Source: Limnochorda pilosa
GTDB lineage: Bacteria > Bacillota > Limnochordia > Limnochordales > Limnochordaceae
DNA: 64,000 nt
NCBI RefSeq assembly: GCF_001544015.1
Contig: NZ_AP014924.1
Coordinates: 744,001 to 808,000 of the forward strand
Direction: 5' to 3'
Below are positions 13,525 through 43,234 of the stretch, in pieces. The translations under genes and the position numbers were made by a program. How positions within the stretch are numbered: position 1 is the first letter of the stretch; each line of letters starts with the position of its first letter. The notes under the pieces are model-generated. The model saw only the letters and a list, made by a program, of their open reading frames with translations, was not told the DNA's origin and made no database searches.

Positions 13525-14475
13525 GTGATCCGTATCGTCACCGTCTCGCGTGAGATGGGCGCCCGCGGTGAGCGGATCGCGGCGCGCCTGGCGCAGCGGC
13601 TGAACCTTCAGCTCTGGGATGGCCACCGGCTGGCCGCTGAGCTGAGGGAAGGGGGGCACCCGCCGCATCTGGCCAGCCTGGCCATCGAGCGTTCGCCCGG
13701 GCTGGTGCAGGGGGTGACCGCGCCCCGCGAGGCGTACCGGGAGGCGGCTCGGAACGTGCTCCTCCAGCGGGCGGGGAAGGGGCTGCTCCTGCTGGGGACG
13801 GGGGGCAACCAGCTCCTTCGCGACGTGCCGGGCAGTGCCCACCTGCGCCTGGTGGCCTCGTGGCCCGAGCGGGTGGCCCAGGCGATGGAGGACCTGTCAC
13901 AGCAGGACCGCGGGCAGGTGGAGGAGATCCTGCGCCAGAGCGACCGGAGGCGGGCGGCGTACGTGCGGTATCTGTACGCGTCCGACTGGGCCGACCCCTC
14001 CCAGTACGGCCTCACCCTGCGGACCGACGGCATGGACCTGAAGGACCTGCTGGATCTATGCGTCGCGGCGGTGCGGCTCCTGACGGCACGGGAGCGGCCC
14101 CCCCGTGCTCCGGCCCAGGAACCCGCCCACGACGAGGTGAGCACCGCTGGCGTGCAGCGCCGCCCTCACATCTTCGCACACCCCAGCGAGGAGGCGTTCG
14201 CGCGCTTCCTGGACTTCTACCGCATCCGTTGGGAGTACGAGCCCCGCACCTTCCCTCTGGAGGTGGACCAGGAGGGGAACGTGCGGGAGGCCTTCACCCC
14301 GGACTTCTACCTGCAGGACCTGGACCTCTACGTGGAGCTCACCACCATGAAGCAGAGCCTGGTGAACCGGAAGAACCAGAAGCTCCGCAAGCTGCGGGAG
14401 AAGTACCCAGGGATCCAGGTGAAGTTGCTGTACGCGAGGGACTTCCGCTACCTGCAAAGCAAGTATGCGGGCTGA
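13525..14475 (+). CDS. Cytidylate-kinase-like domain fused to PD-(D/E)XK-like domain
   Basis: A 316-residue two-domain protein. Residues about 1-185 start VIRIVTVSREMGARGERIA and continue with LWDGHRLAAEL, resembling the cytidylate kinase-like family (Cytidylate_kin2). In that family the nucleotide-binding loop usually reads REFGSGGREIA; here it is REMGARGERIA, so catalysis is doubtful. After a linker, residues about 215-310 (HPSEEAFARFLDFYRIRWEYE, FTPDFYLQDLDLYVELTTMK, RKNQKLRKLREKYPG) have the pattern of a restriction-endonuclease-like fold. The PD acidic residue is present but the usual ExK is E-L-T. GTG 13525 has GGGAGG 6 bp upstream; ATG 13498 is an alternative. The next gene on the same strand is hpt, 500 bp away. 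Function unknown; a link to nucleotide salvage or damaged nucleic acid is inference. Confidence 0.7.
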   Translation: MIRIVTVSREMGARGERIAARLAQRLNLQLWDGHRLAAELREGGHPPHLASLAIERSPGLVQGVTAPREAYREAARNVLLQRAGKGLLLLGTGGNQLLRDVPGSAHLRLVASWPERVAQAMEDLSQQDRGQVEEILRQSDRRRAAYVRYLYASDWADPSQYGLTLRTDGMDLKDLLDLCVAAVRLLTARERPPRAPAQEPAHDEVSTAGVQRRPHIFAHPSEEAFARFLDFYRIRWEYEPRTFPLEVDQEGNVREAFTPDFYLQDLDLYVELTTMKQSLVNRKNQKLRKLREKYPGIQVKLLYARDFRYLQSKYAG

Positions 14476-19151: not shown

Positions 19152-19356
19152 CCGAGGGGCCCTGGCGATCGTGACCCGCCGGGCCCTGTGGCGCGCCCCC
19201 GGGAGCGGGAAGGCAGCCGCTCGGGCACACCGGGAACGCCCGGCGGGGCGGCGCACCCCCGGGTGCGGGCGCCTCAGGGCCCCTGCGCCCGCGGCCCCTG
19301 CAGGTACCCGTGCAGGTATCCGGCCGGGAGCCCGGCCGTCCAAGGGAGGTTTCCCC

Positions 19357-19815
19357 ATGGCGTACGTTCGGGTCCGGGAGGGTGAGGCGCTGCCGCCCGT
19401 GGCGGGCGAGACCCAGCTCGGACCCATCGACCTGGCCGACTTCCGGGGCCGGCAGGCCGTGGTCCTCTACTTCTACCCGAAGGACAGCACGCCCGGGTGA
19501 ACCAAGGAGGCCGCCGGCTTTCAGAGCCGCCTCGCGGAGTTCCGCGAGCTCAACGTGCAGGTGGTCGGCTGTAGCGTGGATTCGGTGCGGTCGCACCAGC
19601 GCTTCGCGGAGAAACAGGGGCTCGAGTTCCCGCTCATCAGCGACGCCGGCAAGACCATCACCTCCAGCCTGGGGGTGCTGAACGAGCGGGGAAACTCGGC
19701 CCGGCGCACCACCCTGGTCGTCGACCGGGATGGGATCGTCCAGAAGATCTTCGAGGACGTGAAGGTTCCGGGACACGTGGAAAAGGTCCTGGAGGCCGTT
19801 CGAAAGCTCGTCTGA
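19357..19815 (+). CDS. bcp: Peroxiredoxin (BCP/PrxQ type), candidate selenoprotein with in-frame TGA
   Basis: Reduces hydrogen peroxide and organic hydroperoxides. Read through the TGA at 19498-19500, the gene gives a complete 152-residue BCP-type peroxiredoxin. Before the TGA it reads VVLYFYPKDSTPG, and after it TKEAAGFQSRLAEFREL. Family members read PGCTKEACGF, so the TGA falls exactly on the peroxidatic cysteine (position 48). Downstream family sequence (VQVVGCSVDSVRSHQRFAEK, FPLISDAGK, TTLVVDRDGIVQKIF) stays in the same frame to a normal TGA at 19813-19815. The usual resolving cysteine five residues later is Ala, so it would act as a 1-Sec enzyme. ATG 19357 has an ideal AAGGGAGGT site. 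A hairpin follows the TGA. The alternative is a Cys-to-stop mutation or sequencing error. selA/selB/selD/selC are not in this window. Confidence 0.78.
19507..19533 (+). promoter_or_regulatory. SECIS-like hairpin after the in-frame TGA
   Basis: Outer stem GAGG (19507-19510) pairs with CCTC (19530-19533). After a 4-nt left-hand bulge, the inner stem CGGCT (19515-19519) pairs with AGCCG (19525-19529). The 5-nt apical loop TTCAG contains a guanine. The loop begins 20 nt after the TGA, within the spacing known for bacterial SECIS elements. Confidence 0.55.
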
Positions 19816-19894: not shown

Positions 19895-21442
19895 GTGGTA
19901 CCCGAGTTTCGCAACGACCCGATGATCGACTTCTCCGTGCCGGAGAACCGCCGGGCCATGGAGGAGACCCTCGCCCGTGTGCGGGGCGAGCTGGGCCGGG
20001 AGTACCCCCTGGTGATCGGGGGCCAGAAGGTCTGGACCGGGGGGCGCATCCGCTCCATCAACCCGTCGAACAACCGGGAGCTGGTGGGGCTGGTGGCCAA
20101 GGCGACCGCGCGTGAGGCCGAGCAGGCCCTGGAGGCCGCCTGGGACGCGTTCCCCCAGTGGAGCGCCATGACCGCCCCCGCCCGGGCCCGCCTGCTCTTC
20201 AAGGCGGCCGCCATCATGCGGCGCCGCAAGATGGAGCTCTCGGCCTGGGAAGTGGTGGAGGCGGGCAAGACCTGGGACGAGGCCGTGGGCGACGTCAACG
20301 AGGCCATCGACTTCATGGAGTACTACGGTCGCGAGGCGATCCGCCTGGCGGAGCCCCACGAGCTCACCCCCTTCCCGGGCGAGGAGACCGAGGCGTTCTG
20401 GATCCCCCTGGGGGTGGGCGTCATCATCCCGCCCTGGAACTTCCCGCTCGCGATCCTGACGGGCATGACCACCGGCCCCGTGGCCGCAGGGAACACGGTG
20501 ATCCTCAAGCCGGCCAGCGCCACTCCCGTCATCGGTGCCAAGTTCATGGAGGTCATGGAGGAGGCGGGCCTGCCGCCGGGCGTCATCAACTTCCTGCCCG
20601 GAAGCGGCGGAGAGATCGGCGACTTCCTGGTGAGCCACCCCCGCACCCGCTTCATCAGCTTCACGGGCTCCATGGAGGTGGGGCTCCGCATCAACCAGCT
20701 CGCGGCCGAGCCCCACGAGGGCCAGATCTGGGTGAAGCGGGTCGTGGCCGAGATGGGCGGAAAGGACGCCATCGTCGTCGACGAGACCGCCGACTTGGAC
20801 GCCGCCGCCGAAGGGATCGTCGCCTCGGCCTTCGGCTACCAGGGGCAGAAGTGCTCGGCCTGCTCCCGGGCGATCCTGGTGGACGCCGTGTACGACCAGG
20901 TCCTCGCGAAGATCGTGGAGCGCACCCGGGCGCTGCGGGTGGGCGACCCAGCCGCGGCAGGGACCCAGGTGGCCGCGGTCATCGACCAGGCTGCCTACGA
21001 GAAGATCCTCTCCTACATCGAGATCGGCAAGCAGGAGGGCCGCGTGGTGGCCGGGGGCGAGAAGGGCGACGAGACGGGCTTCTTCATCCAGCCCACCGTC
21101 ATCGCCGACGTGAACCCGAACGCCCGCATCGCCCAGGAGGAGATCTTCGGACCGGTCCTGGCCGTCATCCGGGCCAGGGACTACGACGACGCGCTCCGCA
21201 TCGCCAACGGAACCATGTACGGGCTCACGGGTTCGGTCTACTCCCGCGACCGGGTGCGCCTGGAGAGGGCCCGCCGGGAGTTCCACGTGGGAAACCTCTA
21301 CTTCAACCGCAAGTGCACAGGCTCGCTGGTGGGCGTCCACCCCTTCGGCGGCTTCAACATGTCGGGCACCGACGCCAAGACCGGCAGCCACGAGTACCTG
21401 CTGAACTTCCTGCAGGCCAAGGCCGTCTCCGAGAAGCTCTGA
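19895..21442 (+). CDS. rocA: L-glutamate gamma-semialdehyde (1-pyrroline-5-carboxylate) dehydrogenase
   Basis: Oxidises glutamate-5-semialdehyde to glutamate with NAD+, the second step of proline and arginine breakdown. The 515-residue length fits the RocA/PruA1 family. Motifs are IPPWNFPLAILTGMT (cofactor pocket), FTGSMEVGLRIN, VVAEMGGKDAIVV with the general-base Glu, and YQGQKCSACSRAIL with the catalytic Cys. The C-terminus has FGGFNMSGTDAKTGS, diagnostic of this subfamily compared with general aldehyde dehydrogenases. GTG 19895 follows AAAGGGGAG. No proline dehydrogenase gene is next to it. It is 80 bp downstream of the candidate selenoprotein and might be cotranscribed. Confidence 0.94.
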   Translation: MVPEFRNDPMIDFSVPENRRAMEETLARVRGELGREYPLVIGGQKVWTGGRIRSINPSNNRELVGLVAKATAREAEQALEAAWDAFPQWSAMTAPARARLLFKAAAIMRRRKMELSAWEVVEAGKTWDEAVGDVNEAIDFMEYYGREAIRLAEPHELTPFPGEETEAFWIPLGVGVIIPPWNFPLAILTGMTTGPVAAGNTVILKPASATPVIGAKFMEVMEEAGLPPGVINFLPGSGGEIGDFLVSHPRTRFISFTGSMEVGLRINQLAAEPHEGQIWVKRVVAEMGGKDAIVVDETADLDAAAEGIVASAFGYQGQKCSACSRAILVDAVYDQVLAKIVERTRALRVGDPAAAGTQVAAVIDQAAYEKILSYIEIGKQEGRVVAGGEKGDETGFFIQPTVIADVNPNARIAQEEIFGPVLAVIRARDYDDALRIANGTMYGLTGSVYSRDRVRLERARREFHVGNLYFNRKCTGSLVGVHPFGGFNMSGTDAKTGSHEYLLNFLQAKAVSEKL

Positions 21443-21535: not shown

Positions 21536-21624
21536 GTCGCGGGCGTCGCGGCGGCCCCGGCCGGGGACCCTTCGCCGTGCGCCGGCACCCACATCTCCTG
21601 ATCCCCCGAGGAGGCATGCCCCCC

Positions 21625-22086
21625 ATGAATGTTGGAGACCGCGCCCCCGACTTCACGCTGAAGGCCACCGGTCCCGATCAGGTGAGCCTGAGCGACTACC
21701 GTGGCAAGAACGTGGTGCTGCTCTTCTTCCCGCTGGCCTTCAGCCCCGTGTGCACCGAGGAGCTCTGCGGGGTGCGCGACGGGCTGTCCGAGTTCAAGGG
21801 CCTGAAGGCGGACGTCCTGGCCATCAGCGTGGACAGCCCCTACACCCTCAAGGCCTTCGCGCAGGCGGAGAACCTGCCGTTCCCGCTCCTTTCGGACTTC
21901 AACAAGGAGGTCGCCCCCAGGTACGGCGCGTACTACGAGGACCTGGCGGGGCTGAAGGGCGTGGCCAAGCGGGCGGCCTTCGTGGTGGACGGGGACGGCA
22001 TCGTCCGGTACCGCTGGGTTTCCGACGTGGCCACCCGCCTGCCGGACATGGGTGCCATCAAGTCAGCCCTCGCGGCCCTCGCGTGA
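21625..22086 (+). CDS. Peroxiredoxin, AhpE type
   Basis: A 153-residue thiol peroxidase, the same size as mycobacterial AhpE. It starts MNVGDRAPDFTLKATGPD and carries the active site FPLAFSPVCTEELCGVRD. The peroxidatic cysteine is in PVCTEE and a second cysteine lies five residues on. A conserved arginine is seen in the later LVVEG-like segment (KRAAFVVDGDGIVRYRW). I choose ATG 21625, 10 bp after GAGGAGG; ATG 21616 lies too close to that site. It has its own promoter. Together with the candidate selenoprotein 2 kb upstream it gives the locus one Sec-type and one Cys-type peroxiredoxin. Confidence 0.93.
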   Translation: MNVGDRAPDFTLKATGPDQVSLSDYRGKNVVLLFFPLAFSPVCTEELCGVRDGLSEFKGLKADVLAISVDSPYTLKAFAQAENLPFPLLSDFNKEVAPRYGAYYEDLAGLKGVAKRAAFVVDGDGIVRYRWVSDVATRLPDMGAIKSALAALA

Positions 22087-22211: not shown

Positions 22212-22288
22212 GGCGGCGTGGCCAAGCGGCTAAGGCAACGGCCCTGCAAGGCCGTGATCCCGCGGTTCGACTCCCGGCGCCGCCTCCA
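22212..22288 (+). tRNA. tRNA-Cys (GCA)
   Basis: Cloverleaf visible: acceptor GGCGGCG (22212-22218) pairs with CGCCGCC (22278-22284). The anticodon stem ACGGC/GCCGT encloses a loop with anticodon GCA. The T-loop has TTCGACT. The discriminator base is T (U73), the identity base for cysteine, and CCA is encoded at 22286-22288. Confidence 0.95.
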
Positions 22289-22344
22289 CTTCTCTCCTCC
22301 CGCCCGGCGGGTGGGAACTCTTGCTGCTCGGGGTGGGCTGCCGC

Positions 22345-42740: not shown

Positions 42741-43234
42741 TCCCCATCCTGGTGAGCACGATCCTGATCGTTGGCCTGGCCCGGGGCGTGGACCTCCTGG
42801 ACGCCTTCGTGGAGGGCGCCCTCGAAGGGGTGAAGCTGGGCGTCCGGATCCTGCCCTTCATCATGGCCATCTACGTGGGCGTGGGGCTCTTCCAGGCGGG
42901 CGGGGTGATGGACGTCGTCTCCCGCGCCCTGGGACCGCTGGCGAGGGCCCTGCGGCTGCCCGTGGAGCTCTTCCCCCTCATGCTCATCCGGCCCTTCTCG
43001 GGGGGCGCCGCGCTCGGCATCGTGGCCGACCTGCTGCGCCAGTACGGTCCCGACTCGCTGATCGGGCGAACCGCGTCCATCATGGAGGGTAGCTCGGAGA
43101 CCACGTTCTACGTGCTCACGCTCTACCTGGGGGCGGTGGGGGTGAAGCGCTCCCGCTACGCCCTGCCGCTCTGCCTACTGGGGGACGTGGTGGGTTTCGT
43201 CGCCGCTGGCTGGGCGGGCCGCGCCTTCTTCTGA
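42725..43234 (+). CDS. spmB: Spore maturation protein B
   Basis: Partner of SpmA, 169 residues. Motifs are WVIPILVSTILIVGLARGVD, VRILPFIMAIYVGVGLFQAGGVMD and LMLIRPFSGGAALGIVADLL, then EGSSETTFYVLTLYLGAVGVKRSRYA, which is highly typical of SpmB. I start it at ATG 42725, with GGAGAGG about 9 bp upstream; ATG 42707 is also possible. It overlaps spmA by 16 bp. At its 3' end it overlaps the convergent DMT transporter gene by 60 bp. Confidence 0.93.
   Translation: MAGWVIPILVSTILIVGLARGVDLLDAFVEGALEGVKLGVRILPFIMAIYVGVGLFQAGGVMDVVSRALGPLARALRLPVELFPLMLIRPFSGGAALGIVADLLRQYGPDSLIGRTASIMEGSSETTFYVLTLYLGAVGVKRSRYALPLCLLGDVVGFVAAGWAGRAFF

Follow-up and report, generated by a model that had tools for sequence, protein, structure and literature searches.

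A predicted selenocysteine peroxiredoxin of the BCP/PrxQ type in Limnochorda pilosa, whose genome carries two unequal gene sets for selenocysteine insertion

The window analyzed here is a stretch of 64,000 nucleotides from the genome of Limnochorda pilosa, which is represented by a single contig of 3.82 Mb. A peroxiredoxin gene interrupted by an in-frame TGA lies in it together with the following features:

19344-19349, forward strand: Shine-Dalgarno-like GGGAGG, with the ATG 7 nt further on (from sequence)
19357-19815, forward strand: predicted selenocysteine (Sec) peroxiredoxin gene, BCP/PrxQ type, 152 amino acids, Sec at residue 48 (from sequence, profiles and orthologs)
19498-19500, forward strand: in-frame TGA at the peroxidatic position of the motif PxxxTxxU, proposed Sec codon (TGC in the syntenic ortholog of the same genus)
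19531-19548, forward strand: CUCGCGG-AGUU-CCGCGAG, a hairpin of -11.9 kcal/mol and candidate bacterial SECIS, with 37 nt between the TGA and its loop (from published constraints)
19895-21442, forward strand: aldehyde dehydrogenase-like gene, directly downstream, 80% identical to its counterpart in the syntenic genome G067 (named by eye)
21577-22086, forward strand: second peroxiredoxin, Cys-type (SPVCTEELC), synteny conserved (from sequence, Pfam and synteny)

The reading frame opens with ATG at 19357, runs through 47 codons to the TGA at 19498-19500 (codon 48), continues for another 104 codons and closes with a terminal TGA at 19813-19815. The frame, the position of the TGA and the length of 152 residues given in the original prediction were exact. 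PKDSTPG precedes the codon 48 TGA and TKEAAGF follows it, and the motif PxxxTxxU is represented by P41-KDS-T45-PG-U48. Peroxiredoxin homology had been claimed for both sides of the TGA; indeed, the match to PF00578 (AhpC-TSA) is unbroken across it and covers residues 18-130 (1.3e-35, 122.5 bits; gathering score 26). In the alignment, the position of codon 48 agrees with the family, and so do P41, T45 and R117, residues whose roles belong to general knowledge about peroxiredoxins. The nearest proteins by sequence are of the BCP/PrxQ type (NF053650, NF006960; PDB 5enu, 3gkn), with scores below the curated equivalog cut-offs (96.7 of 140 bits for NF006960 and 105.3 of 260 bits for NF053650).

Five residues beyond the peroxidatic position stands Ala53, in place of the resolving Cys that characterizes atypical 2-Cys PrxQ/BCP proteins. 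The original prediction took this loss as fitting an enzyme with one Sec. The loss itself is real, but it is not specific to Sec: Cys-type orthologs from the same order carry Val, Gln or Lys at +5. Because Cys forms of the order miss the +5 Cys as well, its absence is no evidence for Sec, and the "one-Sec" argument is weak. A different Cys, in VVGCSVDS at residue 72 (19570-19572), is confined in the alignment to both members of the genus and could serve as an unusual resolving residue. The normal Cys peroxiredoxin reported to lie 2 kb away is the gene at 21577-22086. Further along, ARAGORN places a tRNA with the anticodon 'gc' at 22212-22288, just 5´ of a pyrophosphatase-like ORF at 22321.

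Homologues were aligned at residue 48, as originally advised, and show either Cys or TGA there. The closest ortholog, from G067 of the same genus, is 78% identical and has TGC where the TGA stands. Its surroundings are syntenic, with a regulator-like gene, a membrane protein, the peroxiredoxin, the aldehyde dehydrogenase and the second peroxiredoxin. Neither SelB nor tRNA-Sec was found in G067, a genome 86% complete, in which absence is no proof. Orthologs in other members of the order have Cys at residue 48 too. A sample of 398 genomes from the phylum yielded seven more with a homologue that carries a TGA. For six (G116, G428, G076, G122, G279, G202), direct reading placed the TGA at the equivalent codon; for G315, the TGA form is reported by table only. 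SelB is present in all 8 genomes with a TGA form and in 8 of the 18 with a Cys form (Fisher p=0.008, phylogeny ignored). For the order of G076, homologues were sought in 4 genomes. Where the motif was readable (68 sites in 80 loci), a scan of contigs for homologues returned only Cys forms, with 37-50% identity. A second near pair consists of G116 (Sec) and G477 (Cys), which are 88% identical. The Cys form of G477 (L171) keeps a strong hairpin after its Cys codon; retention of the hairpin at such identity to the Sec form of G116 (L170) suggests a recent Sec-to-Cys switch in G477.

Both parts of the gene look like coding sequence. Its GC3 is 0.94 upstream and 0.89 downstream of the TGA. Comparison with the G067 ortholog gives dN of 0.18 and dS of 0.60 downstream of codon 48, which indicates that the part past the TGA has been kept as protein. 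Counting both strands, the window has 1,194 TGA triplets. Only three of these have 40 open codons with a coding-type GC bias to each side, and the codon 48 TGA is the sole one of these with protein homology recognized (by eye) on both sides. The other two, at 43232 (forward strand) and 46055 (reverse strand), possibly lie in shadow frames.

The published model of bacterial SECIS elements allows a loop of 3-9 nt, a stem of 4-16 bp, a G in loop positions 1-2, a spacing of 16-37 nt and a minimum free energy of at most -7.5 kcal/mol (PMC13188914 Fig. 2). With its AGUU loop, 7 bp stem, spacing of 37 nt and energy of -11.9 kcal/mol, the hairpin at 19531-19548 falls within all five limits, its spacing being at the outer extreme of the accepted range. 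When 2,220 in-frame codons of the genes in the window were taken as background, 14% had some hairpin conforming to the model and 2.0% an equally strong G[G/U] hairpin at an allowed spacing. Given this background of about 2%, the hairpin is supportive, not decisive. The stretch of 73 nt after the TGA folds no better than its shuffles (z -0.5), and two competing hairpins are found after the TGA, one with its loop at +21 and no leading G, the other with its loop at +38. The hairpin does not share its offset with those of other Sec-peroxiredoxins, the strongest of which place their loops at roughly +15 to +26.

Residues 49-65, encoded where the SECIS would lie, differ from the Cys ortholog of G067 at 9 of 17 positions, compared with 21 of 122 elsewhere (Fisher p=0.002, phylogeny ignored). 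The ratio of divergence between this stretch and the rest is 3.1; it is about 1.1-1.6 in informative Cys-Cys pairs, whose overall divergence is in every case higher, and residues 49-65 are a generally variable stretch. Such an excess of replacements would be expected if an RNA structure were reshaping the protein there.

The inference that the host possesses Sec machinery was borne out. The genome encodes SelA (a strong match, 562 bits), two SelB proteins, both above the cut-off, two selenophosphate synthetases (SelD), each with its own N-terminal TGA, and two tRNA-Sec with the UCA anticodon (81 and 69 bits; gathering score 47). The selB and selC genes, whose absence would have spoken against the original prediction, were looked for and both are present. 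One copy of several of these genes belongs to a second cassette outside the window:

G000:C1:368797-378055 (L018:4700-15154): second Sec cassette with selD2, three UGSC genes, a UshA-like gene, tRNA-Sec2 and selB2

Each of the three UGSC-family genes has a TGA in D-U-GSC, and selB2 follows directly downstream of tRNA-Sec2. No selA was found in this stretch. The genes selD2 and selD1 are 90% identical, SelB2 and SelB1 share 40% identity, and the two tRNAs differ in fold (7/5 for tRNA-Sec2, 8/5 for tRNA-Sec1). GC content is 66.6% in the 19-kb stretch with the cassette, as against about 71% in the window. Among the 73 genomes of the class, a second SelB and UGSC genes occur in this one alone, one other (G006) has two tRNA-Sec, and two SelB matches occur in 3 of the 257 SelB-positive genomes of the phylum sample. 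Judging by rarity, GC content and divergence, the second cassette looks like a horizontal acquisition.

The hairpin filter applied to the peroxiredoxin is also passed by SelD1, SelD2 and UGSC3; UGSC1 and UGSC2 fail it. An identical post-TGA hairpin, GUCGUGG-CUUGU-CCACGAC, is present in two UGSC genes (L018:11927-11966 and 13832-13871) and does not conform to the usual rule for bacterial SECIS elements, to which the hairpins of UGSC3 and of both selD genes do conform. Immediately before tRNA-Sec2, the UshA-like ORF (L018:8380-9339) ends in KCGC-TGA. The family nearest to it, NF041198 (score under the cut-off), includes PCGU selenoproteins; the TGA of this ORF appears to be a stop. As a tentative idea, which we regard as possible rather than likely, two parallel and partly separate Sec-decoding systems might coexist in the cell. 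SelB1 and the 8/5 tRNA-Sec would then serve the resident selenoproteins including this peroxiredoxin, the acquired SelB2 and the 7/5 tRNA-Sec would serve the surrounding UGSC genes, and one SelA would be shared.

We propose that 19357-19815 very probably encodes a selenocysteine peroxiredoxin of the BCP/PrxQ (COG1225, TxxU) group. In the presumed course of events, SelA makes Sec-tRNA-Sec, and SelB would bind a hairpin shortly after the UGA, the best candidate being that at 19531-19548, with the result that Sec enters at codon 48 and termination is avoided. The Sec selenolate, held by Pro41, Thr45 and Arg117, would reduce hydroperoxides and be converted to a selenenic acid. Since the usual resolving Cys at +5 is missing, the selenenic acid would probably be recycled by an external thiol, either thioredoxin-like or of low molecular weight.

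Three other explanations of the TGA have to be weighed. It might result from a recent nonsense mutation, or from a sequencing error, in a normal Cys peroxiredoxin. A single substitution converts TGC to TGA, and TGC is what the closest ortholog has. Yet the gene offers 42 single-step nonsense routes and only one of them, TGC to TGA at codon 48, strikes the catalytic codon, and the genome concerned is one whose Sec machinery is complete; together with the three comparably flanked TGAs among 1,194, this agrees with the earlier argument that random nonsense would rarely hit that codon. The TGA moreover recurs in the family in other species, the gene is otherwise undisrupted, and a SECIS-compatible hairpin accompanies an excess of replacements confined to the stretch after the TGA. 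We therefore consider a mutation or error improbable.

Even less credit can be given to the notion that the TGA is a true stop followed by reinitiation, for example at GTG 19555, to yield a shortened protein of 86 amino acids. The mechanical ORF list does contain 19555-19815, but such a product would be devoid of the peroxiredoxin active-site motif and of nearly half of the domain, and the orthologs extend over the full length and have an in-frame Cys. Read-through with a residue other than Sec, such as Cys or Trp delivered by a near-cognate tRNA, is about equally hard to accept in a genome with two tRNA-Sec(UCA) genes, SelA and SelB, and for a position where Sec is the established residue of the family (PMC9312934, PMC13188914).

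With high probability, then, this peroxiredoxin adds to a known Sec family, and the mechanism would be ordinary bacterial Sec insertion, Sec itself being predicted. We found nothing in the literature on Limnochorda and selenium. The gene is a well-supported selenoprotein gene that table-11 gene calling splits in two. It also provides a clean pair of Cys and Sec orthologs from one genus, with conserved synteny and with the presence of Sec machinery tracking the codon. The occurrence of two separate, unequal Sec-insertion gene sets in one genome is unusual, and it makes side-by-side specialization of SelB, tRNA-Sec and SECIS testable.

PrxU of Eubacterium acidaminophilum is a Sec-peroxiredoxin that has been studied experimentally, and the original prediction drew a parallel to it. 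The parallel stands in that Sec-peroxiredoxins are known and in that Sec, here predicted, likewise replaces the peroxidatic Cys. It does not extend to the closest kinship: PrxU (NF040737) was rejected as the family, since this protein scores 62.7 bits where the cut-off is 270, which indicates a different subfamily, and the nearest described relatives are of the BCP/PrxQ type (COG1225, TxxU). Sec-peroxiredoxins of COG1225/Bcp, with TxxU or PxxxTxxU, are an established bacterial selenoprotein family (PMC9312934, PMC13188914, PMC1088965). Our protein has in common with them the domain family, the peroxidatic position of (predicted) Sec and PxxxTxxU. It differs in belonging to a new lineage with Cys forms as its closest sequence relatives, in having no resolving Cys at +5 and in a hairpin whose loop takes up the outermost spacing allowed. 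From the BCP/PrxQ proteins listed above it is set apart by predicted Sec in place of Cys and by Ala at +5.

Duplication of Sec genes is not new in itself, since two-operon cases have been reported: Photobacterium profundum 3TCK has two complete Sec operons (PMC5330540). L. pilosa resembles it in having two non-identical tRNA-Sec genes and a tRNA-Sec of the 7/5 type. The difference lies in the second cassette, which here comprises selB, selD and UGSC genes with no selA seen, and in SelB proteins that are 40% identical.
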